Shown here: piece after piece, positions 9,345 to 21,192 of the stretch
Layout: every line of letters begins with the position of its first letter
How positions within the stretch are numbered: the first letter of the stretch is position 1
Source: Kribbella kalugense
GTDB lineage: Bacteria; Actinomycetota; Actinomycetes; Propionibacteriales; Kribbellaceae
Direction: 5' to 3'
Assembly: GCF_004365875.1 (NCBI RefSeq)
Contig: NZ_SODF01000002.1
Span: 186,001-250,000 of the forward strand
DNA: 64,000 bases
Made by a program: the position numbers and the translations under genes
The notes under the pieces: generated by a model
The model's input: only the letters and a program-made list of their open reading frames with translations
Database searches by the model: none
What the model was told of the DNA's origin: nothing

Positions 9345-9977
9345 ATGTCTGACCAGAAAGCCCTCCCGCCGGTTGTATCGGCCGAGGAGTGGGAGAAGGC
9401 GCGGGCCGAGCTGCTGACCGCCGAGAAGGCCGCCACCCGCGCGGAGGACCGGTTGGCTGCGCAGCGCCGGCGGCTGCCGATGGTTCAGTTCGGCGAGTAC
9501 ACCTTCGCGTCGACGGACGGGCCGGTGACGCTGCTCGACCTGTTCGGGGACCAGCAACAGCTCGCGCTCTACCAGTTCATGCACTCCGGCCCGGACCATT
9601 TCTGCCCGGGCTGCACGTTCTTCACCAAGCAGGTCACCGACCTCGACGGACTGAGCAGCAACGGCGTCGCCTGGGCCACGGTGTCGGACATGCCGCTCGA
9701 CCAGATGGCCGGCTACTGGAAGCGGATGGGCTGGACGGTGCCGTTCGCCTCATCCGCGGGTACGACGTTCTCCGCCGACTGCGGTGCGGGTGGCGGCTTC
9801 CTGCTGAACCTGTTCCTCCGCGACGGCGACACCGTCTACCGCACCTACTCCACCGGCCAGCGCGGGGTCGACCGGCTGTTGTTCGGCAACACCATCCTCG
9901 ACCTCGCGCCGTACGGCCGGCAGGAGGACTGGGAGGACTCACCGGCCGGCTGGCCGCAACACCCGACGTACGGCTAG
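9345..9977 (+). CDS. DUF899 family thioredoxin-like protein
   Basis: This 210-residue protein starts at ATG 9345, with GAAAGGA nine bases upstream; a longer open frame from 9285 lacks such a site. It shows the DUF899 pattern: an N-terminal helix (VSAEEWEKARAELLTAEK), then a thioredoxin-like domain with HSGPDHFCPGC (a CxxC near residue 90) and SDMPLDQMAGYWKRMGW. Members are thought to be AhpC/TSA-like redox proteins without a defined substrate. The stop overlaps that of the convergent monooxygenase by 4 bp (CTAG shared). Confidence 0.78.
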   Translation: MSDQKALPPVVSAEEWEKARAELLTAEKAATRAEDRLAAQRRRLPMVQFGEYTFASTDGPVTLLDLFGDQQQLALYQFMHSGPDHFCPGCTFFTKQVTDLDGLSSNGVAWATVSDMPLDQMAGYWKRMGWTVPFASSAGTTFSADCGAGGGFLLNLFLRDGDTVYRTYSTGQRGVDRLLFGNTILDLAPYGRQEDWEDSPAGWPQHPTYG

Positions 9978-11796: not shown

Positions 11797-12878
11797 GACG
11801 CCTTCCTCTGTTCGCGGTGGGCTACCTCGGAGCGGACCAGCGGGATGACGTAGCGACCGAAGTCAATCGCGTCGTCGTAGATGTCGTACCCGCGGGCGGA
11901 GAAGATCCGGATGCCGAGGTCGTAGTAGTCGAGGAGCGCGGCCGCGATGGTGTCCGGCGTACCGACCAGTGCTGTTGAGTTCCCGCCACCGCCGGTGACG
12001 CCGGTCGGCGCGGTCCATAGCGCGCGGTCGTGGCGCTCGCCTTCTGCGACGGCCTTCAGCAGTCGCTGCGAGCCCGAGTTCTCAGGCGTTTTCGAACGGA
12101 GACGCGTCGGAGCCGGACCGTTCTTGATCCGGCCGAGGATGCTCTCCGCCTTCTCCCAGGCCAGTTCCTCGGTCGGCGCGATGATCGGCCGGAACGCGAT
12201 CTGGATGGTCGGCCGGTCCGCACGGCCGGCGCGCGAAGCTTCGGCGTCGATGGTCGCGAGCTGCTCCCGAGTCCCGGCCAGCGGTTCACCCCACAGCGCG
12301 AAGATGTCCGCCTCGGCCGCACCGACGGCGTACGCCGCGGCCGACGAGCCACCGAACGAGATCCGCGGCCTTGGCTGCTGCAGCGGCTTGATGTCGGCTA
12401 CGAAGTTCTCGAACCGGTAGTGCTTGCCGTCGAAGTCGAAGCGCTGATCCGAGGTCCAGGCCTGCTTGAGGATCTGGATGAACTCGTGCGTCCGTGCGTA
12501 CCGCTCGTCCTTGGTCAGGAAGTCGCCCTCGGCGGCCTGGTCCGCGGTCGACCCGCCGGTGATCACGTGCACCTCGAACCGGCCGCAGCTGATGTGGTCC
12601 AGTGTCGCGAACGTCTTCGCGGTCAGCGTCGGGTAGGCGACGTTCGGCCGGTGCGCGACCACCAGGTTGATCCGCTCGGTCCGGCCGGCGACGTACGCCG
12701 CGACCTGGGACGGATCGGGCGAGCCCGAGTGGTAGGCGAACAGGATCCGGTCCCACCCATTGTCCTCGTGGGCGCGGGCGAGCTTGCTCGTGTACTCCAG
12801 GTCCAGCGGGCCGCCGGTTCGCGGCGTGACCTCGCTGGCCGGGTTGGTCCCGGCGATGCCCAGGAACTCAACTGGCAT
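11793..12878 (-). CDS. SsuD-like LLM-class alkanesulfonate-type monooxygenase
   Basis: This 361-residue protein resembles FMNH2-dependent alkanesulfonate monooxygenase SsuD, with AHRPNVAYPTLTAKTFATLD, HVITGGSTADQAAEGDFL and RYARTHEFIQILKQAW. SsuD releases sulfite from alkanesulfonates. The matching of these segments is good, but the C-terminal half carries insertions, so the substrate may differ. It overlaps the upstream FAD/NAD(P)-binding gene by 11 bp. The operon's importer is of amino-acid type rather than SsuABC, which argues against simple alkanesulfonates. Confidence 0.83.
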   Translation of the reverse strand: MPVEFLGIAGTNPASEVTPRTGGPLDLEYTSKLARAHEDNGWDRILFAYHSGSPDPSQVAAYVAGRTERINLVVAHRPNVAYPTLTAKTFATLDHISCGRFEVHVITGGSTADQAAEGDFLTKDERYARTHEFIQILKQAWTSDQRFDFDGKHYRFENFVADIKPLQQPRPRISFGGSSAAAYAVGAAEADIFALWGEPLAGTREQLATIDAEASRAGRADRPTIQIAFRPIIAPTEELAWEKAESILGRIKNGPAPTRLRSKTPENSGSQRLLKAVAEGERHDRALWTAPTGVTGGGGNSTALVGTPDTIAAALLDYYDLGIRIFSARGYDIYDDAIDFGRYVIPLVRSEVAHREQRKAS

Positions 12879-14742
12879 GACGTTCTTCCTTCCGTACGGT
12901 GGGTGCGAGCAGATTGAGCAGGTCCCTGGCTACGGCGTCGTTCTGCCGGAAGCCGGGACCGTTGAAGTGCGGCCGGGAGAACCCGGACGATCCGGCGGAT
13001 CCCGAGACGGACGGCCCGAGCAGGAACAATGCGTCGTGCGTGGACCCGTCGGACCGGATCGCCCGGCTGTGCGAGTCGGCCTTGAGCTGACCGCCGCCAA
13101 GACTCGTCCCGTCACCGGCAAACAGCTCGTCCGCCGCGAGCGCCCCGGAGTCCAGCAGACCACGCAGCAACGGATCGGTTGTCGCGAGTACGTCGGGACG
13201 CGGCAACCGCGCTTCAACGAAAGCCCGTGCGTGGATCTCGCCCGCCACTCCGGGGCTGCGGGCAACGAAGTGATCGTTGTCGATGGCAACGTCCAGGTCA
13301 GGACCTGCGAACCGAACGATGCCGGCCCGGTGCAGCGCGAGCAGCTCCTCCAGCCGTCGCGGCGGCGGACCACTCGCGACGAACGAGAAGAACCCGTGCC
13401 ACTCGGTCTCGACCCGCCGGACCCGGTCCTCGTCAGACAGTTGCCCTTCGGTGATTGCCCTGGACAACACGCTGTAGATACTCAGCAACGCGTTGAACAC
13501 GGCGAGATCCGGCGAGTACGACGGATCCGCTCGGCGCAGCAGATCGTTCTCGATAAGCCTGGTCAAGAACCCCTCGAAGCCCTCGCGATCCTCGAAGAAC
13601 CGATCCGCCAACGGCCGGTCGACCTCGTGACGAACGAACCGGTCGGCCTGATCCGGCACCGCGGCGGCAACCGCAGTCTCGAAGGCAGGTGACCAACTGT
13701 CGAGGACCTCGGCGAAGCGCTCCCACGACCAGCGGGTCCGCTCGGGGTGCGCCGTGAACAGCTGCCGATAGTGCGCGAACGCCAACTCCTTCTCGATCAA
13801 CGGCTGTACGTCGCGATCGAAGTCCAGTACGCCGTTGCCGAGAGCATCCTTGGTCAGATAACGGGTGGGGACCGGCTTCGTACCGGCCACGGTGTAGCCG
13901 AGCTTCGCGTGGTACGGGACGCCTCGGCGCGAGCCGACGTACAGGATCGGCTCGTCGCCCGACGGGTGGTACTTGAGCAGCCCGTCGCATTCGTCGTACC
14001 AGCCGCCGCGGCCCTCGGTGAGCAGGACCATCAGGTCGATGAATGCTTGCCCGAAGCCCCGGACGATCACCGAGGACTTAGGCCACAGTCCGTCGAGATC
14101 CACGTCCGCGGTGTAACCGGGCGGGATGTAGGTCAGGCCGGCGTCCGTGGCCTGCGCGGCCCACGCCGCTTCCGATGCCGTGGGCAACCGATCGAGGTAG
14201 CCGAGGGCAAGGACTGCCGCGTCGGCCGCGATCTCCTGGCCGGACTCGAGAATCACCCGCTGGTCCGCGGTGAGCTCGACGGCCCGCTCGCGATGGGTGG
14301 TCACGGTCGCGGGGAGATCGCGGACGACGCGCTCCCAGACCCACGCCAGGTACTCCGCCTGTACCAGACGCGGCGGGAAGTCCATCGGGCCCGGTTGCTC
14401 GAGCCCTGCCTTCTCCAGGATCACCGCACCCTCACCGGCGACCCAGGTGGCGAGATCCGGACCCGGCACGATCGGCCCGTCGCACTCGACCGATTCGTCG
14501 GTGAAGATCGTGACGTCCGAGGTCATCGAGTTCATCCACAGCAGCCGGGACTGCTCCCGCCGCCAGATCCGCCCACCGCCGGCCGGGTACGGATCCACCA
14601 CGTGGATGTGTACGTCGCGTCCATCGAGCAACTCCGACGCGTTGGCGGCGAACCGCTCGAGCAGCCCGACCGTCCGAGGCCCACCGCCGACGAACACGAC
14701 CGTCGCGGCCGACTTCCACGGATGCAGGTCAGCCACAGTCAT
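12868..14742 (-). CDS. Large FAD/NAD(P)-binding protein of the sulfur operon
   Basis: This 624-residue protein starts VVFVGGGPRTVGLLERF (residues ~14-30), a dinucleotide-binding motif typical of the FAD-NAD(P)-binding (NAD_binding_9-like) family. Residues ~45-85 read HVVDPYPAGGGRIWR and LLWMNSMTSDVTIFTD. A second motif area includes AAVLALGYLDRLP. The C-terminal half has SSGFSRPHFNGPGFRQND. Relatives are large monooxygenase-like proteins of unknown substrate. Its ATG overlaps the upstream LLM gene by 4 bp. I infer oxidative attack on, or electron transfer to, an imported sulfur compound. Confidence 0.72.
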   Translation of the reverse strand: MTVADLHPWKSAATVVFVGGGPRTVGLLERFAANASELLDGRDVHIHVVDPYPAGGGRIWRREQSRLLWMNSMTSDVTIFTDESVECDGPIVPGPDLATWVAGEGAVILEKAGLEQPGPMDFPPRLVQAEYLAWVWERVVRDLPATVTTHRERAVELTADQRVILESGQEIAADAAVLALGYLDRLPTASEAAWAAQATDAGLTYIPPGYTADVDLDGLWPKSSVIVRGFGQAFIDLMVLLTEGRGGWYDECDGLLKYHPSGDEPILYVGSRRGVPYHAKLGYTVAGTKPVPTRYLTKDALGNGVLDFDRDVQPLIEKELAFAHYRQLFTAHPERTRWSWERFAEVLDSWSPAFETAVAAAVPDQADRFVRHEVDRPLADRFFEDREGFEGFLTRLIENDLLRRADPSYSPDLAVFNALLSIYSVLSRAITEGQLSDEDRVRRVETEWHGFFSFVASGPPPRRLEELLALHRAGIVRFAGPDLDVAIDNDHFVARSPGVAGEIHARAFVEARLPRPDVLATTDPLLRGLLDSGALAADELFAGDGTSLGGGQLKADSHSRAIRSDGSTHDALFLLGPSVSGSAGSSGFSRPHFNGPGFRQNDAVARDLLNLLAPTVRKEERHAS

Positions 14743-16055
14743 GCCTGAATCCCGAGGTGATGACGAAGGGTCGTGCCCGAGTACTCACTGCGGAAGACCC
14801 CGCGATCACGCAGCAGCGGGACGACCCGGTCGACGAAGTCGTCGAGTCCACTGGGCGTGAGGTGCGGGACCAGGACGAAGCCGTCCGCCGCGTCCTCCTG
14901 AACGTGGCGGTTGATCGCGTCCGCGACCGTGCTGGCCGACCCGACGAACGTCTGCCGGTTCTGCTGATTGATGACGGTCTGGCGCAACGACCAACCATGA
15001 GCCTCGGCCTGCGCACGCCACTCCGCGACGATCGGGAACGGGTCGTTGTACCCGACCCGCCCCTGCGTCACTGACGAACCCACCACCGGATCCTCGGCAG
15101 GCAACGGCCCATCCGGGTCGTACGCCGAAAGGTCGCGGCCCCACAGCAGCTCGGCCAGCACGAGTGCGGTCGGACCGGAGACCTGCTGCTCCCGGATGTA
15201 CGCCGCCTTCTCGATCGCCTCGTCGTCCGTGTCGGCGACCACGACCGTCACCGCTGGCATGATCTTCAGCGACTCCTCGGTCCGTCCGTACTTCGTCAGC
15301 CGCGACTTCACGTCCTTGTAGAAGGTCTGCCCGGCCTCGAACGTCCCGTGCCGACTGAAGATCACGTCCGCACTCGACGCGGCGAACTCCCGTCCTTGGT
15401 CGCTGTCGCCGGCCTGGATGATGACCGGCCGACCCTGTGGCGACGGTGGCAAACCGAACCGTCCGCGAATATCGAAGTGATCGCCTTCGTCCGCGAAGAT
15501 CCCAGCGCCCTCGCGGGCGAACACGCCTGCCGCCTGGTCGAGGACCAACTGGTCCGCGTCCCAGGAGTCCCAGAGCTTTCGCACGATCCGCAACGACTCC
15601 TGCGCGCGGACGTAGCGATCGGATTTGTCGAGGTACCCGCCGCGGCGGAAGTTCTCGCCGGTGAACGCGTCCCAGGACGTCACGACGTTCCAGGCCGCGC
15701 GACCGCCGGAGAGGTGATCGAGCGTCGACAGCCGCTTCGCCAATTCGTACGGCTCGTTGAACGTCGAGTTCACCGTCGCCGCCAGACCGAGGTGCGTGGT
15801 CACCGCCGCAAGCGCACTCAGCACAGTCAGCGATTCCGGTCGGCCGACGACATCGAGGTCGTGGATCCTTCCCTTCACCTCGCGCAGCCGCAGCCCCTCG
15901 GCCAGGAAGAAGAAGTCGAACGTCCCGCGCTCGGCCGTCTCCGCCAGCTTCCGAAACGACGTGAACTCGATCTGTGAGCCCGCCGCCGAGTCGGACCAAA
16001 CGGTCGTGTTGTTCACACCCGGGAAGTGCGCAGCCAGATGGATCTGCTTCGTCAT
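14739..16055 (-). CDS. NtaA/SnaA/DszA-type LLM monooxygenase
   Basis: This 438-residue protein matches the long-form LLM monooxygenases (nitrilotriacetate, DszA and CmoJ/YtnJ types): FFFLAEGLRLRE, TVNSTFNEPYELAKRLSTLD, LSGGRAAWNVVTSWD and NFRRGGYLDKSDRYVRAQE. These use FMNH2 to oxygenate C-N, C-S or S-containing substrates. In Bacillus, CmoJ of this type acts on N-acetyl-S-(2-succino)cysteine. Overlaps of 4 bp on both sides place it firmly in the operon. Confidence 0.87.
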   Translation of the reverse strand: MTKQIHLAAHFPGVNNTTVWSDSAAGSQIEFTSFRKLAETAERGTFDFFFLAEGLRLREVKGRIHDLDVVGRPESLTVLSALAAVTTHLGLAATVNSTFNEPYELAKRLSTLDHLSGGRAAWNVVTSWDAFTGENFRRGGYLDKSDRYVRAQESLRIVRKLWDSWDADQLVLDQAAGVFAREGAGIFADEGDHFDIRGRFGLPPSPQGRPVIIQAGDSDQGREFAASSADVIFSRHGTFEAGQTFYKDVKSRLTKYGRTEESLKIMPAVTVVVADTDDEAIEKAAYIREQQVSGPTALVLAELLWGRDLSAYDPDGPLPAEDPVVGSSVTQGRVGYNDPFPIVAEWRAQAEAHGWSLRQTVINQQNRQTFVGSASTVADAINRHVQEDAADGFVLVPHLTPSGLDDFVDRVVPLLRDRGVFRSEYSGTTLRHHLGIQA

Positions 16056-17035
16056 CGTCCACTCCCCGCATATCTGTTGCCTGGTCGCTGCAACCCGAGC
16101 CGCCCGCGCAAACTCCCACCGCGGTCAGCCGGCCCAACCAGTCCGCGTTCCCGCAGCAAAGGCAGCAACTCGTCGGCGATCACCGGAACGTCCAGCTCGA
16201 GCGACGCCGGCCGGAGGTGTACGCCGTCAACGCCCGCCGCGGCCCAACCCTCGATCCGCTCGACAAGTCGTTCAACACCCTCGTCGTGCGGCCGAACCCG
16301 CACCGAAACAAGCTGTAGTGCGTTCACCTGGGCGGGGAGGTCGTCGGAGTCCGGGAGGAAGACCAAGTCGGCGTCGACTTCCAGCGCCTCGGGGCTGTTC
16401 ACCCGGACCGCCGTGATCGGGTAGCCCTGTGGTGGCCGCGGGACGATCGACGGGCCTTTGATGCTGAACGACGGCGACTCGAAGTCGACGTAATGCAGCT
16501 TTTCGCGATCGACGTACCGCCCGGTGGCTGCGTCGCGGATGATCGCGTCGTCCTCCCACGAGTCCCACAACCGTCGGCTCACATCGACGACGTACCGCGC
16601 CTCCCGCCACGTCTCGGCAGCGGGCGCCGGCGGGCGCCGACCGATCACCGCAGCGGCCTCGGCCGAGCTGGAAACGTCCGCGATCCACCCACCCCGACCG
16701 CCCGAGATGTGGTCGAGCGTGGCGACCGATGCCTGGACGTGGAACGGCTCGGTGTGCGTGACCGTGATCGTCGGCAACAACCCGATCCGCTGCGTCACCG
16801 GCGCGATCCGCGCAGCCAGCCCAAGCGCGTCGAGCCGAACACTCACCTGATCGGGTACGTCGTCCGGCGCCTCGAGCGCATCCGCAAAGGTCGCCAGATC
16901 GATCCCGGCCGCCTCGGCTCGCTGGACTGCGCGCAGAGCGAGCTCACCAGTGAGGATCGCCCGCGGATCAACCTCCGACCCACGCCAAGCCGCCGGGTCG
17001 CCGCCTGCTCCATCGATCTCGATCGCGGTGATCAT
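16052..17035 (-). CDS. LLM-class flavin-dependent oxidoreductase, short divergent form
   Basis: This 327-residue protein starts at ATG 17035 (MITAIEIDGAGGDPAAW), overlapping the upstream fusion gene by 4 bp; a longer open frame upstream lies inside that gene and is rejected. The LLM core is visible: THTEPFHVQASVATLDHISG, GRGGWIADVSSSAEAA, RRLWDSWEDDA and SFSIKGPSIVPRPPQG. It is shorter than the neighbouring NtaA-type enzyme and lacks part of the barrel insertions. It may form a complex with that enzyme or have its own substrate. Confidence 0.78.
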   Translation of the reverse strand: MITAIEIDGAGGDPAAWRGSEVDPRAILTGELALRAVQRAEAAGIDLATFADALEAPDDVPDQVSVRLDALGLAARIAPVTQRIGLLPTITVTHTEPFHVQASVATLDHISGGRGGWIADVSSSAEAAAVIGRRPPAPAAETWREARYVVDVSRRLWDSWEDDAIIRDAATGRYVDREKLHYVDFESPSFSIKGPSIVPRPPQGYPITAVRVNSPEALEVDADLVFLPDSDDLPAQVNALQLVSVRVRPHDEGVERLVERIEGWAAAGVDGVHLRPASLELDVPVIADELLPLLRERGLVGPADRGGSLRGRLGLQRPGNRYAGSGR

Positions 17036-18087
17036 GATGCTTCCTTCAAAGCAAGCGAGATCTCTTTGAAGAAAGGCAACGGACCGATCGACTCCGGATC
17101 TGCCTCGGTATCGAACTGCGGTTGGAAACCAGCCGCCAGATACAACGACGCCGCCTCGGGCTGACGCGGTCCCGTCGTCAGATAGAGCCGCCGATACCCG
17201 AGATCGAGAGCAGCCGCCTCCAGTTCCGCCAGCACGCGGCGGCCGAGTCCTTGCCGTCGATGCAGGTGCGACGTCCACATCCGCTTCACCTCGGCGGTCT
17301 CGTCGTCATACCGACGGATAGCGCCCCCGGCAACCGTCAGACCGCCGTACCGCAGGAGGACGAACGCGCCACCGCGCTCGAGGTGGAAATCGGACGGCGG
17401 TACTTCGGTGAGCTGCGTGTGCGGGTTGGTCCGCCCGTAACGGGTGCTGTACTCGACAACCAGATCCGCGAGCAACGGCGCCGCCTCGGGATCCTCCGGG
17501 CGAGCGCGGACCGCCTCGATGGCCGCCGCCTGCACCGGCGTACTCTCCACCGGCTGACCGCCCTCGACCGTCGCGAGGAACGCCTCCGTCACCTGATACA
17601 GCGGCACGGACGCAGCCGGATCGAGCAGCAGCCCACCGCCGTCGTACAACCGGATGTGGGAGGACAACACGAACCAGCCCTGGCCGATCGCGCCCGCCCC
17701 GAGACTGGTGAGCACCGGGCGGAGCGCGTAGTCGATCACCAGCACGTGCGCCGGCGTACCGCCTGTTGCCAATGGCAACACTGTCTTGCCTTTCAACGCG
17801 TACTGCGGAAGAAGGTCGAGGAAGACCTTCAACAGACCGGAGTACGCCGCCTTGTAGACCGGCGTCGTGACCACGACCGCGTCAGCAGCCTCCAAAACTG
17901 CGGCCGCGGCGGCGATCGCCGGATGATCGGCCCGACCTCGCACCAACGGCTCGGCCGGAAGGTCGCGGAGCACGATCGGGGTGACGGTGTGGCCGTGGCT
18001 GATCAGGCGTTTGGTGACATATTCGAGGACCGCGTCGGTGCGGGACGGGATCGACGGACTGCTGGAGATCGTTGCAATGGTCGCCAT
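17032..18087 (-). CDS. SsuE-like FMN reductase fused to a GNAT acetyltransferase
   Basis: Residues ~1-180 are an NADPH-dependent FMN reductase of the SsuE type (ATISSSPSIPSRTDAVLEYV, DAVVVTTPVYKAAYSGLLK, PLATGGTPAHVL), which would supply FMNH2 to the operon's LLM enzymes. Residues ~230-351 are a GNAT domain, with VKRMWTSHLHRRQGLGRRVL containing the acetyl-CoA loop and YLTTGPRQPEAASLYLAAGF. Both halves look intact. The two activities are usually separate genes. In the Bacillus ytm pathway, N-acetylation precedes monooxygenation, so a fused pair fits the same logic. Confidence 0.85.
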   Translation of the reverse strand: MATIATISSSPSIPSRTDAVLEYVTKRLISHGHTVTPIVLRDLPAEPLVRGRADHPAIAAAAAVLEAADAVVVTTPVYKAAYSGLLKVFLDLLPQYALKGKTVLPLATGGTPAHVLVIDYALRPVLTSLGAGAIGQGWFVLSSHIRLYDGGGLLLDPAASVPLYQVTEAFLATVEGGQPVESTPVQAAAIEAVRARPEDPEAAPLLADLVVEYSTRYGRTNPHTQLTEVPPSDFHLERGGAFVLLRYGGLTVAGGAIRRYDDETAEVKRMWTSHLHRRQGLGRRVLAELEAAALDLGYRRLYLTTGPRQPEAASLYLAAGFQPQFDTEADPESIGPLPFFKEISLALKEAS

Positions 18088-18096
18088 TGAGTTCTC

Positions 18097-19038
18097 CTAT
18101 TTCTTCGGCAGACCGGGCGGGTTGATCAAGGACTTCGGGACGGCCTCGGCCTGCAGGCCCCACTTGGCCAGGACCTTCGCGTAGCTGCCGTCGGCGATGG
18201 CTGCATTGAGTGCATCGGCGAGCGGCTTGACCAGGCCGTCGCCCTTCTTGGTGGTGATGCCGACCAGACCCTGCACGGGGTAGCTGGACGAGACGGTGCC
18301 GACGATCTCGGTCTTGCCCTGGGTGGCGACGTGGTACGACGCGTTCGGGTTCGGGCCGAGGTAGAGATCGATCCGGCCGGACTGCAAGGCGAGATAAGTG
18401 TCCGCAGCTTGCTGGTAGTACTTGAGGTTCGCGGGTTTGCGACCGGCCGCGACGTTCTGTTTGTTCCAGTCGAGCAGGATCGCTTCCTGCAAGGTGCCGG
18501 AGCTGACCGCGACGGTCTTCCCGGAGATGTCGGCCGGGCCGGCGACCTTCAGCCCGGACCCCTTCTTCGCCTCGAAGGCGTGCAGTCCGAGCCGGTACGT
18601 CGCGAAGTCGTACTTCTCCTTACGCAGCTCGGAGACGCCGATGTTGGAGATCCCGACCTGGTACTTGCCCGAGTCGAGCCCGAGGAACAGGTTCTCCCAG
18701 CTGGTGGTGTCGATCTCCGCCTGCAACCCGAGCACGCTCGCGACCAGGTAGGCGATGTCGATCTCGACCCCGATCGGCGTCTTGTTGTCATCCGCCGTGA
18801 ACCCGAGCGGCGGTAACCCGCCACCAGCCGACCCGTTTCCAACGACCAGCTTCCCGCTTTCGCGAACAGCTGCAGGCAGCTCGGCGGCGATGCTGTCGAC
18901 CTTCGCCGACGTGACGTGCTCCTGCTTCGCGGACGTGTCGAAAGCAACCTCGGAAGCTTTCGAGGAAGTATTCGTCTGCGGGTCTGCGCACGCTGCCAGG
19001 GTGAACAGGGCGAGGGAAAGGACAAGGAGTCGTTTCAT
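18097..19038 (-). CDS. Amino-acid-type ABC transporter substrate-binding lipoprotein
   Basis: This 313-residue protein starts at ATG 19038 with a lipoprotein signal peptide (LLVLSLALFTLAAC, lipobox LAAC). The mature part is a family 3 periplasmic-binding fold of the cystine/polar amino acid type, with PLGFTADDNKTPIGVEIDIA, VGISNIGVSELRKEKYDFA and GKTVAVSSGTLQEAI. It delivers substrate to the permease and ATPase encoded just upstream. With sulfur oxygenases downstream, the ligand is probably cystine or an S-substituted cysteine. The 9-bp gap before the fusion gene is the largest in the operon. Confidence 0.88.
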   Translation of the reverse strand: MKRLLVLSLALFTLAACADPQTNTSSKASEVAFDTSAKQEHVTSAKVDSIAAELPAAVRESGKLVVGNGSAGGGLPPLGFTADDNKTPIGVEIDIAYLVASVLGLQAEIDTTSWENLFLGLDSGKYQVGISNIGVSELRKEKYDFATYRLGLHAFEAKKGSGLKVAGPADISGKTVAVSSGTLQEAILLDWNKQNVAAGRKPANLKYYQQAADTYLALQSGRIDLYLGPNPNASYHVATQGKTEIVGTVSSSYPVQGLVGITTKKGDGLVKPLADALNAAIADGSYAKVLAKWGLQAEAVPKSLINPPGLPKK

Positions 19039-19790
19039 CAGAGAACCTTTGAGATGAAGGCGCGGGTGCGCTCGTGGACGGGGTTGTCGAGCACCTCGCG
19101 CGGTGGGCCGGACTCGACGATCCGACCGTCGTCGATGAAGACCACCGTGTCGGCGATCTCCCGGGCGAAGCCGATCTCATGCGTGACGACGACCATCGTG
19201 GCGCCGTCGCGAGCGAGCTCCTTGATCACGTCGAGGACCTCACCGACCAGCTCGGGGTCGAGCGCGCTGGTGGGTTCGTCGAACAGCAGGACCTTCGGTT
19301 TCAGCGCCAGCGCACGGGCGATCGCGACCCGTTGTTGCTGCCCGCCGGACAGTTGGCGCGGATAGACGTCGGCCTTGTCACCGACTCCGACTCGCTCCAG
19401 CAACTCCCGCGCGTACGGCTCGACCTCGCTGCGCTTGCGGCGCTGCGCGGAGACCGGCGCCTCGACGACGTTCTCCAGCACGGTCAGATGCCCGAACAGG
19501 TTGAAGGTCTGGAACACGAACCCGACCTGCGACCGCTGCCGGAGGATCTCCCGTTCACGCAACTCGTGCAGCTTGTTCCCGCGCCGCCGGTAGCCGATCA
19601 GCTCACCGTCGATCCGGATCAGCCCGCGATCCACCTTCTCCAGATGGTTGATCGACCGCAGCAACGTCGACTTGCCCGACCCGGACGGCCCGAGGATCAC
19701 CGTGACCGCTCCGGCCGGCACCTCGAGGTCGATCCCCTTCAGTACTTCGAGATCGCCGAAGCTCTTGTGCACACCCTTGACGTCGATCAT
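19038..19790 (-). CDS. Amino-acid-type ABC transporter ATP-binding protein
   Basis: This 250-residue ATPase starts at ATG 19790 (MIDVKGVHKSFGDLEVL). It has Walker A GPSGSGKST, Q-loop FVFQTFNLFGHLTVLENV, signature LSGGQQQRVAIARAL, Walker B VLLFDEPTSALDP and the switch His in VVVTHEIGFA. It is of the GlnQ/TcyN subfamily that energises amino acid importers. It overlaps the permease gene by 4 bp and the binding-protein gene by 1 bp. A longer open frame upstream is antisense-frame noise across the permease. Confidence 0.95.
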   Translation of the reverse strand: MIDVKGVHKSFGDLEVLKGIDLEVPAGAVTVILGPSGSGKSTLLRSINHLEKVDRGLIRIDGELIGYRRRGNKLHELREREILRQRSQVGFVFQTFNLFGHLTVLENVVEAPVSAQRRKRSEVEPYARELLERVGVGDKADVYPRQLSGGQQQRVAIARALALKPKVLLFDEPTSALDPELVGEVLDVIKELARDGATMVVVTHEIGFAREIADTVVFIDDGRIVESGPPREVLDNPVHERTRAFISKVL

Positions 19791-20680
19791 CGCGCCGTAC
19801 CCCGGGCGAAGCGGCGTTCCACGTAGTACTGCACGATCGACAGCAGCGTGGTCAGCACGATGTACCAGACCGTCGCGACCATCAGCAGCGGTACGACGCG
19901 ACCGCTCCGGCCGTAGATCACCTGGACCTGGTAGAAGAGCTCGGGGATCGCCATCACCGAGACGATCGACGTGCCCTTGAACAGGCTGATCACCTCGTTC
20001 GCGCCGTTCGGCAGGATCGACCGCATCGCCTGTGGCAGCACGATCCGGAAGAACTGCCGCGGCTTCGGGATCCCCAGCGCGGCCGCGGCCTCGGTCTGCC
20101 CGGCGTCGACCGAGATGATCCCGCCTCGAATGATTTCCGCGGCGTACGCCGCCTGATGCAAGGCGAGCCCGAGTACGGCGGCGCCGAGCGGGCCGAACAG
20201 GTTGTTCGTACTGAAGTGCACGAACTCCGGTCCGAACGGGATGCCGATGCTCAACTGCTGGTACAGGTAGGCGATGTTGAACCAGAACAGCAGCTGCACG
20301 ATCAACGGGATCGAGCGGAACGCCCAGATGTAGCCCCAGGCAACTACTTGCAGGAAAGGGCTGCTGGACAGGCGCATCGATGCGAGTACGGCGCCGAGCA
20401 CGAACCCGAGCACCGTGCCGTACACGGTCAACTGCACCGTTACCCAGAGCGCGGAGAAGATCGTCCTGGTGGCGAAGAACTGGAAGAACGTCGGCCAGTC
20501 CCAGCCCGGGTTCGTGGCCAGACCGTGCACGAACATCGCGAGCAGGACAAGCACAACCCCCACGCCGACCCAGCGCCACGGATGCCGTCGGGCGACGATC
20601 GGCAGGTCGGTTTCGAGCGGTACTGCGGACGTCGGCGGTCCGGACGTACCGGACACAGACGTGACTGAAGTGGTGGACAC
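19787..20680 (-). CDS. Amino-acid-type ABC transporter permease
   Basis: This 297-residue membrane protein starts at GTG 20680, with GGGAG about 8 nt upstream. After a polar N-terminal ~35 residues it has about five transmembrane helices typical of the HisMQ family, with GYIWAFRSIPLIVQLLFWF and the EAA-like QTEAAAALGIPKPRQFFRIVLP. As a single permease gene it would act as a homodimer, as in TcyB-like systems. It is the first structural gene of the operon, 97 bp after the leader-peptide stop. Confidence 0.92.
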   Translation of the reverse strand: MSTTSVTSVSGTSGPPTSAVPLETDLPIVARRHPWRWVGVGVVLVLLAMFVHGLATNPGWDWPTFFQFFATRTIFSALWVTVQLTVYGTVLGFVLGAVLASMRLSSSPFLQVVAWGYIWAFRSIPLIVQLLFWFNIAYLYQQLSIGIPFGPEFVHFSTNNLFGPLGAAVLGLALHQAAYAAEIIRGGIISVDAGQTEAAAALGIPKPRQFFRIVLPQAMRSILPNGANEVISLFKGTSIVSVMAIPELFYQVQVIYGRSGRVVPLLMVATVWYIVLTTLLSIVQYYVERRFARGTAR

Positions 20681-20716
20681 GATGACACTCCCTGGCGGTG
20701 GGCACGGCGCGGCAGA

Positions 20717-20731
20717 CGTCCGGAACGGACG
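20717..20731 (-). terminator. Small GC hairpin between leader peptide and permease, possible attenuator stem
   Basis: CGTCCG (20717-20722) and CGGACG (20726-20731) form a perfect 6-bp stem with a GAA loop in the 97-bp leader region downstream of the peptide. It could be the terminator or a pairing partner of an attenuator, but there is no T tract and longer alternative pairings have not been computed. Confidence 0.25.
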
Positions 20732-20777
20732 CCGTCAGCGGGAGGCGAGATAGCTCAGGTCAGCTCGGTCAGCACAG

Positions 20778-20852
20778 TCAGCGCAGACAGAGTGCGCTGG
20801 AGACCCGGAGAAGGTCGATGTGGAGGCGGTAGTACGGCGGCTTGCGCGTCAT
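20778..20852 (-). CDS. Leader peptide upstream of the sulfur operon (24 residues)
   Basis: A 24-codon frame on the minus strand runs from ATG 20852 to TGA 20778. AGAGGAG lies about 8 nt before the ATG. The peptide begins MTRKPPYYRLH, continues IDLLRVSSALC and ends LR; its only cysteine is the antepenultimate residue. Short peptides with a (H)xDLxRxxSALC-type ending occur before sulfur-assimilation operons in Streptomyces and relatives, where they are thought to couple cysteine supply to downstream expression. Position before a transporter and monooxygenase operon fits. Regulation itself is inferred. Confidence 0.8.
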   Translation of the reverse strand: MTRKPPYYRLHIDLLRVSSALCLR

Positions 20853-21192
20853 CCCCGTCTCCTCTCGTAGGTCGTGTCATTTCAGTATGGGACGAGGTTG
20901 AAAGATTAGTAACTTGGTCGACAAAGCTCTCAAAATATGGACGCCTTATACCGGTCCGGAAGGGCCGCTCGACGCCAATCGGCGGGTGATCCGCGTCACC
21001 CCGATCGCAGGCCGGACCGGCGGGCCGTTCACGCCTGAACACACACACGGCGGCAGGACCCCCTCACCGAGCGTGTTGAAAAACGTTCATCTTTTCGCAA
21101 TCCGTGTTTGAGACACTCGTGATGGCGTCGTTATGGTCGTTCGAGTCGCCGTTCCCCCTCCCCGGCGATTACCCAGCCCTGGAAGGTTTCTC
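20853..21192. other. Intergenic region between divergent sulfur operon and M23 peptidase gene
   Basis: This 340-bp gap separates two divergent genes. It holds the candidate sulfur-operon promoter near 20906-20933. The stretch 21070-21130 is AT-rich, with TTGAAAAACG near 21077, and probably holds the peptidase promoter. I looked for a riboswitch-like fold before the peptidase, such as the c-di-AMP class known before some actinobacterial cell-wall hydrolases, and could not identify the conserved core by eye. I see no convincing gene here. Confidence 0.5.
20906..20933 (-). promoter_or_regulatory. Candidate sigma-70-type promoter of the sulfur operon
   Basis: On the minus strand TTGAGA (20928-20933) and TACTAA (20906-20911) are separated by 16 nt, about 55 nt before the leader-peptide start. 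The hexamers match the consensus only in part. The surrounding DNA is unusually AT-rich for this genome, which supports a promoter here. Confidence 0.35.

Follow-up and report, generated by a model that had tools for sequence, protein, structure and literature searches.

Could a peptide of 24 residues with a single cysteine serve as the cysteine sensor of a long sulfur operon in Kribbella kalugense and, if so, how would one codon do the sensing? A sequence-only reading of this DNA had proposed a leader peptide with an AGAGGAG ribosome site, an ATG and a lone cysteine near its end, lying 97 bp before the first structural gene. We analyzed this locus within a window of 64,000 nucleotides, the whole stretch of DNA presented. 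The frame is present as described, and its strand, which had not been given, is the minus strand: positions 20852-20778 translate as MTRKPPYYRLHIDLLRVSSALCLR, 24 residues from an ATG start to a TGA stop, with Cys22 as the sole cysteine. The plus strand of 20778-20852 begins SAQTECAGDPEK and holds an unrelated frame. Upstream of the leader ATG lie the AGAGGAG at 20865-20859 and, going by the DNA sequence alone, a likely -10 element at 20889-20884. The leader is real, stands far above chance and is encoded on the minus strand. The features at its 5' side are as follows.

20778..20852, minus strand: leader peptide ORF, 24 codons plus TGA
20859..20865, minus strand: ribosome-binding site of the leader, AGAGGAG, with the ATG 6 nt downstream; a purine-rich Shine-Dalgarno region in the locus alignment
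20883..20934, minus strand: strongly conserved block upstream of the leader, from the alignment of 16 loci
20912-20907 and 20889-20884, minus strand: candidate promoter, TTACTA and CATACT separated by 17 nt, hexamers picked by eye

The conserved block, TTTGTCGACCAAGTTACTAATCTTTCAA..CATACT (20934-20883), probably includes the promoter and may also carry an operator for some regulator. The TTACTA and CATACT hexamers are absent from the output of a consensus promoter scan.

Does the peptide belong to a known kind of leader? Against the NCBIfam model NF042934, "putative leader peptide" (cis_reg_atten), it scored 30.7 bits (E = 1.6e-7), above the cut-off of 27 bits, which makes it a member of a leader kind that already has a name. 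Its arrangement, a short ORF of 24 codons located 97 nt ahead of an operon for an ABC transporter and monooxygenases, fits that name as well. The leader had been called "unlisted"; NCBI already has a family for such peptides. Against NF042936, the profile of the Ms4527A Cys-rich leader, the score was 18 bits, under the 45-bit cut-off, and when the window was scanned with Rfam 15, three tRNAs alone were above the gathering score, with no riboswitch or T-box.

The Kribbella genome (8.3 Mb), searched with NF042934 at E values up to 10, gave 14 matches, five of which are leader-like (two over the cut-off and three at 20.9-26 bits). Next after the other four leaders come sulfur- or sulfonate-type genes, which encode an NMT1-type binding protein, a flavin reductase, a nitrite/sulfite reductase and a DUF4395-rhodanese pair. 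In wider samples, at least 192 of 296 genomes of the class had a match (E up to 5e-4), at least 177 of them over the cut-off, and matches were found in at least 94 of 196 genomes of the order and at least 10 of 149 genomes of the phylum-wide sample (E up to 1e-3). The sole match outside the class in this last sample (L103) is without a cysteine and is not a leader. These counts support the view that this kind of leader is spread through the Actinomycetes.

What does the leader precede? The spacer from the leader stop to the permease start, 20777-20681, is indeed 97 nt long, and at least 10 genes follow (traced to position 9974), all on the same strand and overlapping or nearly abutting.

19787..20680, minus strand: polar amino-acid-type ABC transporter permease, the first structural gene, GTG at 20680 (NCBIfam TIGR01726, 60.9 bits, cut-off 42.2)
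19038..19790, minus strand: ABC transporter ATPase (Pfam ABC_tran, 2.5e-35)
18097..19038, minus strand: substrate-binding protein, family 3 (Pfam SBP_bac_3, 1.4e-21)
17032..18087, minus strand: SsuE-type NADPH-dependent FMN reductase fused to a GNAT acetyltransferase (TIGR03567, 192.6 bits, cut-off 164; Pfam Acetyltransf_1)
16052..17035, minus strand: luciferase-like flavin monooxygenase (Pfam Bac_luciferase, 4.5e-18)
14739..16055, minus strand: NtaA/DmoA-family FMN-dependent monooxygenase (TIGR03860, 408 bits, cut-off 279.7)
12868..14742, minus strand: FAD/NAD(P)-binding protein (Pfam NAD_binding_9, 5e-35)
12878-11793, minus strand: SsuD-like monooxygenase (Pfam Bac_luciferase passed, the NCBIfam cut-off of that name missed)
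11796-11017, minus strand: DUF1684 protein
11020-9974, minus strand: CE1758-like monooxygenase (Pfam Bac_luciferase passed, the NCBIfam cut-off of that name missed)

The permease also matches Pfam BPD_transp_1. Among models that match it over its full length, one for a cystine permease scores best, at 1.8e-41 and under the cut-off of that model (142 of 300 bits). Such a make-up likely fits the uptake of organosulfur compounds and their flavin-dependent oxidative breakdown, the substrates perhaps being S-substituted cysteine or sulfonates. The proposal of a leader before a sulfur operon is thus borne out to the extent that a member of NF042934 stands ahead of a likely sulfur-acquisition operon. 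The nearest relatives of the operon are those of Kribbella species. The fusion protein at 17032-18087 has near-full-length matches in Kribbella-type loci only; the other listed relatives match one half of it.

Is it the peptide that is kept? The sequence-only reading had named a lack of peptide conservation in orthologous loci as what would speak against it, and we made this comparison. The leader is retained in all 15 of the Kribbella-type orthologous operons, which were among 79 loci found via the FMN reductase-GNAT protein. In 16 Kribbella-type sequences, compared across their final 18 codons, pN was 0.032 and pS 0.282 (pN/pS 0.113), so that amino-acid changes are about ninefold rarer per site than silent changes. 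By this comparison of sequences, the leader peptide is under selection. Among all 79 loci, the leader pattern was present in 42 and lacking in 37, so that the more distant relatives of the operon are often without it. None of the loci fetched from Cryobacterium, Pseudoclavibacter, Aureimonas and Sphingomonas had it; consequently, the leader is not bound to these genes everywhere.

Several individual loci deserve mention. In Kribbella antiqua (L019:8690-9010), the FMN reductase-GNAT gene is directly preceded by the leader and a remnant stub from the beginning of the permease gene; the transporter genes are gone from between leader and reductase gene, and the leader has therefore outlived the gene once next to it. 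The operon and leader of a record titled Streptomyces sp. SID13031 (L028) group with Kribbella at 85% identity, and its leader resembles that of K. catacumbae; the record may be mislabelled. In four Geodermatophilaceae loci (L050, L051, L075 and L088), two leaders lie near each other on opposite strands, both with TGT at the key cysteine, and each leader perhaps serves one of two divergent units.

For comparison across the family, members were aligned on the conserved Asp (D), the key cysteine being D+9, nine residues after it. We collected 163 members, the strongest of a larger set (83 from automatic loci and 80 by region), and counted 161 of them, leaving out L256 (Ala at D+3) and L103 (no Cys); within-family duplicates were kept among the 161, which comprise 155 distinct sequences by family. 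Arg at D-4 was found in 161/161, the Asp in 160/161 and Leu at D+1 in 153/161, figures that are inflated because members were picked with a protein profile in descending order of score. The anchor rule, which demands R, K, H or Q at D+3, inflates conservation at that position. Both the profile choice and the anchor rule are independent of the codon.

20787..20789, minus strand: Cys22 codon TGT with C as the next base, the putative regulatory codon, at D+9 in the family motif (codon comparison)

We observed that the codon at this position is nearly fixed. Across the family, the D+9 cysteine is encoded by TGT in 159 members and by TGC in 2, with TGT found in 28 of the 29 bacterial families sampled, in 16/16 Kribbella-type sequences and in all five leaders of the Kribbella genome. 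The other cysteine codons from the Asp onward are TGT in 60 and TGC in 189 of 249 cases (TGT 16/147 when the poly-Cys family f4 is excluded), and in the flanking genes 203 of 1199 cysteine codons (17%) are TGT. Compared with the flanking genes, the preference for TGT at D+9 has a Fisher p of 6e-102 in a test that ignores relatedness. The sharpest control lies within the same peptides, as the Cys-Arg dipeptide takes opposite codons at two positions: where a cysteine stands at D+2 ahead of an Arg, it is TGC in 69 of 72, whereas a D+9 cysteine that precedes Arg is TGT except in L224. On the other hand, Arg at D-4 is spread over five codons and Arg at D+3 over six, which indicates that it is the amino acid that is conserved at those positions and the codon that is conserved at D+9.

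A second sample, the leaders of the 79 operon loci, which were found without the profile and may share genomes with the first, showed TGT in 49 of 50. A count with a greedy pattern gave 49 TGT and 3 TGC among 52, two of the three TGC being an extra cysteine beside a D+9 TGT. In leaders with RTCSALC (L048, L050, L075 and L088, minus strand), the first cysteine is TGC and the second TGT. The rare instances of TGC at D+9 are L102, L224 and L056.

The constraint extends one base further. A pyrimidine follows the D+9 codon in 153 of 161 leaders, compared with 560 of 1196 for the cysteine codons of the flanking genes. Where something other than Arg, Cys or a stop comes next, this base is C in 38, T in 3, A in 6 and G in 2. 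With UGU plus pyrimidine near-invariant, what is conserved is a motif of the peptide together with one RNA-level word. Among the 54 tRNA matches in the genome, the only tRNA-Cys carries the anticodon GCA (two copies), so UGU needs G-U wobble to be read; a special tRNA for UGU was considered and set aside on the same search. Decoding of a wobble-read codon is expected to be slow when a pyrimidine follows it.

What might lie downstream of a slow codon? The region between the leader and the permease contains the following features.

20681..20777, minus strand: 97-nt spacer, leader stop to permease start, C 0.42 and G 0.28 in its first 81 nt
20715..20733, minus strand: hairpin GGCGTCC-GTTCC-GGACGTC with no U-tract after it (minimum free energy fold; RNAalifold of 15 loci)
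20688..20693, minus strand: permease Shine-Dalgarno AGGGAG, within CCGCC(A/C)GGGAG in 15/15 aligned loci

A downstream start was obtained for 157 of the 161 family loci by a heuristic of which at least a few calls are apparently wrong (low Shine-Dalgarno scores). On these starts, 102 spacers measure 60-220 nt, and C exceeds G in 101 of them; in a small control, the gaps that separate co-directional genes, this was so for 27 of 42. The mean of C minus G is 0.17 in the leader spacers (n = 102) and 0.04 upstream of other genes (n = 386). Rho loads on RNA that is rich in C and poor in G. The composition of the spacers may thus be taken as an indirect sign of Rho.

How, then, would the leader work? 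We lean towards a cysteine-sensing leader of the NF042934 kind in which a stall, assisted by the nascent chain at the wobble-read Cys codon, shields the operon from Rho. A ribosome would start at the AGAGGAG/ATG and make the short peptide, and the conserved R...DL.R..S would sit in the exit tunnel once the D+9 Cys codon enters the A site. There UGU, wobble-read by tRNA-Cys(GCA) and followed by a pyrimidine, would presumably be the slowest cysteine step. When Cys-tRNA is plentiful, the ribosome would pass this codon and release 0-12 codons on, after which Rho would load on the bare, C-rich and G-poor spacer and transcription would end before the operon. Under a shortage of Cys-tRNA, by contrast, it would stall near the end of the ORF and cover the first part of the spacer, which would allow transcription of the operon. 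E. coli tnaC offers a parallel, as it has conserved residues before its stall site and its stalled ribosome keeps Rho off the spacer. The comparison is one of working only: peptide, effector and codon differ, and we claim no homology.

We infer the translation of the leader, the stalling, the response to cysteine and the role of Rho. Cysteine-limited stalling is plausible, with the codon choice at the key Cys lending support, and Rho is placed first among the downstream routes, though not firmly. Against this stalling model with Rho stands an earlier cysteine at D+2 in 72 of the 161 leaders. A sensor of supply alone would stall first at D+2, and the model must therefore assume that the UGC there is passed faster. 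The conserved spacer hairpin also has no role in it.

Is it the speed of decoding that keeps the U at the wobble position, or another constraint? The base could be held at the RNA level, by pairing, by an RNA-binding protein or by a programmed frameshift, and that four bases (UGU plus pyrimidine) are fixed across differing D+10 residues would agree with this. However, pairing of the codon does not exceed that of the bases around it (unpaired 0.44/0.28/0.41, surrounding mean 0.34), and a paired U should have yielded compensated TGC over 29 families, against only two TGC in 161. A frameshift at UGU receives a hint from the +1 frame, which is somewhat more open than in shuffles (mean 59 compared with 50 codons), and none from the -1 frame, which is like shuffles (46 compared with 45.5). 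We thus set aside base pairing and frameshifting as reasons for the UGU and regard the RNA-level reading as a whole as improbable; decoding is preferred as the cause of the fixed base because pairing is not raised, the -1 frame behaves as in shuffles and compensated exceptions are missing. The stall could also be of the TnaC type, that of a true arrest peptide: free cysteine or a related metabolite, bound by the nascent chain, would arrest the ribosome while its P site holds Cys-tRNA, and a shortage of Cys-tRNA would then not be the signal. The near-invariant residues in the 13 positions before the Cys (Arg at D-4, the Asp, Leu at D+1 and Arg at D+3) would be needless in a simple starvation attenuator, and the tolerance of the D+2 cysteine noted above would be odd for pure starvation sensing. 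On the other hand, the conservation of these residues is inflated, as described, by the profile selection and the D+3 anchor rule, and if cysteine induces the arrest and the arrest switches the genes on, the response would have the wrong sense for a scavenging operon. We know of no ligand or structure for arrest of this type by these leaders, and we give it a small probability.

Could the stalled ribosome act on RNA folding rather than on Rho? In translation attenuation, the Shine-Dalgarno of the permease gene would be hidden by the spacer or leader RNA until stalling at the Cys codon frees it, a mechanism that PMC13236596, in its available portion and citing Canestrari 2020, describes for Cys-regulated genes of M. 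smegmatis. The permease Shine-Dalgarno, kept in every aligned locus, is partly paired in the consensus fold, as this reading would have it. However, when the footprint of a ribosome was blocked at Cys22 in folding of the window, there was no gain in predicted accessibility of this site, and among the 105 loci that passed the filters for Shine-Dalgarno accessibility, the gain on stalling was 0.030 compared with 0.014 for shuffled spacers (p = 0.19), in a model that leaves ribosome coupling and tertiary structure outside. We consider translation attenuation unlikely, if still worth keeping in mind. Transcription attenuation of the trp type, with competing antiterminator and intrinsic terminator hairpins, would give a role to the short conserved spacer hairpin. 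In the consensus fold of 15 loci, this hairpin (7-8 bp) has seven pairs, of which one is changed on both sides, so that covariation is minimal. No U-tailed terminator was found on the minus strand between 20500 and 21250 by a scan that is blind to terminators without a U-tract, and the leader has one sensor codon rather than a run. This reading appears to us very improbable. Alternative secondary structures as the switch were therefore rejected, the footprint folding, the 105-locus test and the terminator scan all being unsupportive. Of the hairpin-forming DNA that the sequence-only reading saw in the gap, one hairpin stands, weakly supported, with a single doubly changed pair and no U-tract; of the two outcomes of stalling offered by that reading, altered folding did not find support in these tests, whereas altered access of Rho gained indirect support from the C-rich, G-poor spacers.

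The stalling model may be extended to the leader family. Tentatively, and with less confidence than for the Kribbella leader, we suggest that actinomycete cysteine leaders could be codon-gated arrest peptides, in which the wobble-read UGU-pyrimidine at D+9 is the sensor, R...DL.R..S poises the ribosome there and an earlier cysteine is kept as UGC to avoid a premature halt.

How does the Kribbella leader compare with described systems? With NF042934, it has in common the motif and a Cys near the C-terminus, together with the sulfur-type gene context seen in this genome; nothing was found that excludes it, and the UGU-pyrimidine is a nucleotide feature that lies beyond a protein model. The polycysteine leaderless short ORFs of mycobacteria (Canestrari et al. 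2020, via PMC13236596 and PMC9094748) likewise end in Cys and lie before sulfur genes. As far as the available text of these two papers goes, they have a run of cysteines and are leaderless, whereas the Kribbella leader has one Cys in 24 residues and a putative Shine-Dalgarno, a feature missing from leaderless starts; this site and the likely -10 element at 20889-20884 would speak against a leaderless start. In the poly-Cys family of our sample (f4), TGT is found at D+9 in 19 of 20, as in the Kribbella leader. The available portion of PMC13236596 gives translation attenuation, and not Rho, for the Cys-regulated genes of mycobacteria. On the other hand, Rho was raised for Mycobacterium Cys leaders, as a weak prediction, by Seliverstov 2005 (PMC1262725), where, in the sections available, Cys leaders without terminators are reported and the mode of their regulation is left open. 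The leaders of Mycobacterium, Propionibacterium and Bifidobacterium in that paper likewise have Cys near the stop and no clear terminator; they carry, in the same sections, runs of Cys codons, as opposed to the single Cys in Kribbella, and neither Kribbella nor this type of operon figures there. Finally, uORFC-8-2 before cysS in Rhodobacterales (PMC8632094) is likewise an upstream ORF with regulatory Cys codons; according to the available part of that source, it has an intrinsic terminator and tandem Cys codons, mainly UGC, which is the opposite codon choice. Among the papers listed by our full-text searches, none pointed to a UGU preference in these leaders, although Canestrari 2020 or D'Halluin 2023 might mention one. 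On the sequences compared here, the new point is the near-universal UGU-pyrimidine; the leader kind is already known.

The working of these common actinomycete sulfur leaders is unsettled, and the UGU rule makes sensing by a single codon testable, as a near-invariant base at a normally free codon position separates models based on decoding from models based on structure. The leaders would give a clear case of an amino-acid sensor that is set by wobble decoding at one codon instead of by a series of codons. If codon gating is true, one synonymous change from U to C would be enough, throughout the class, to leave entire sulfur operons unable to sense cysteine. Furthermore, the leader may mark the operons that the cell treats as sulfur supply and may thereby help to assign flavin monooxygenases whose substrate is unknown.
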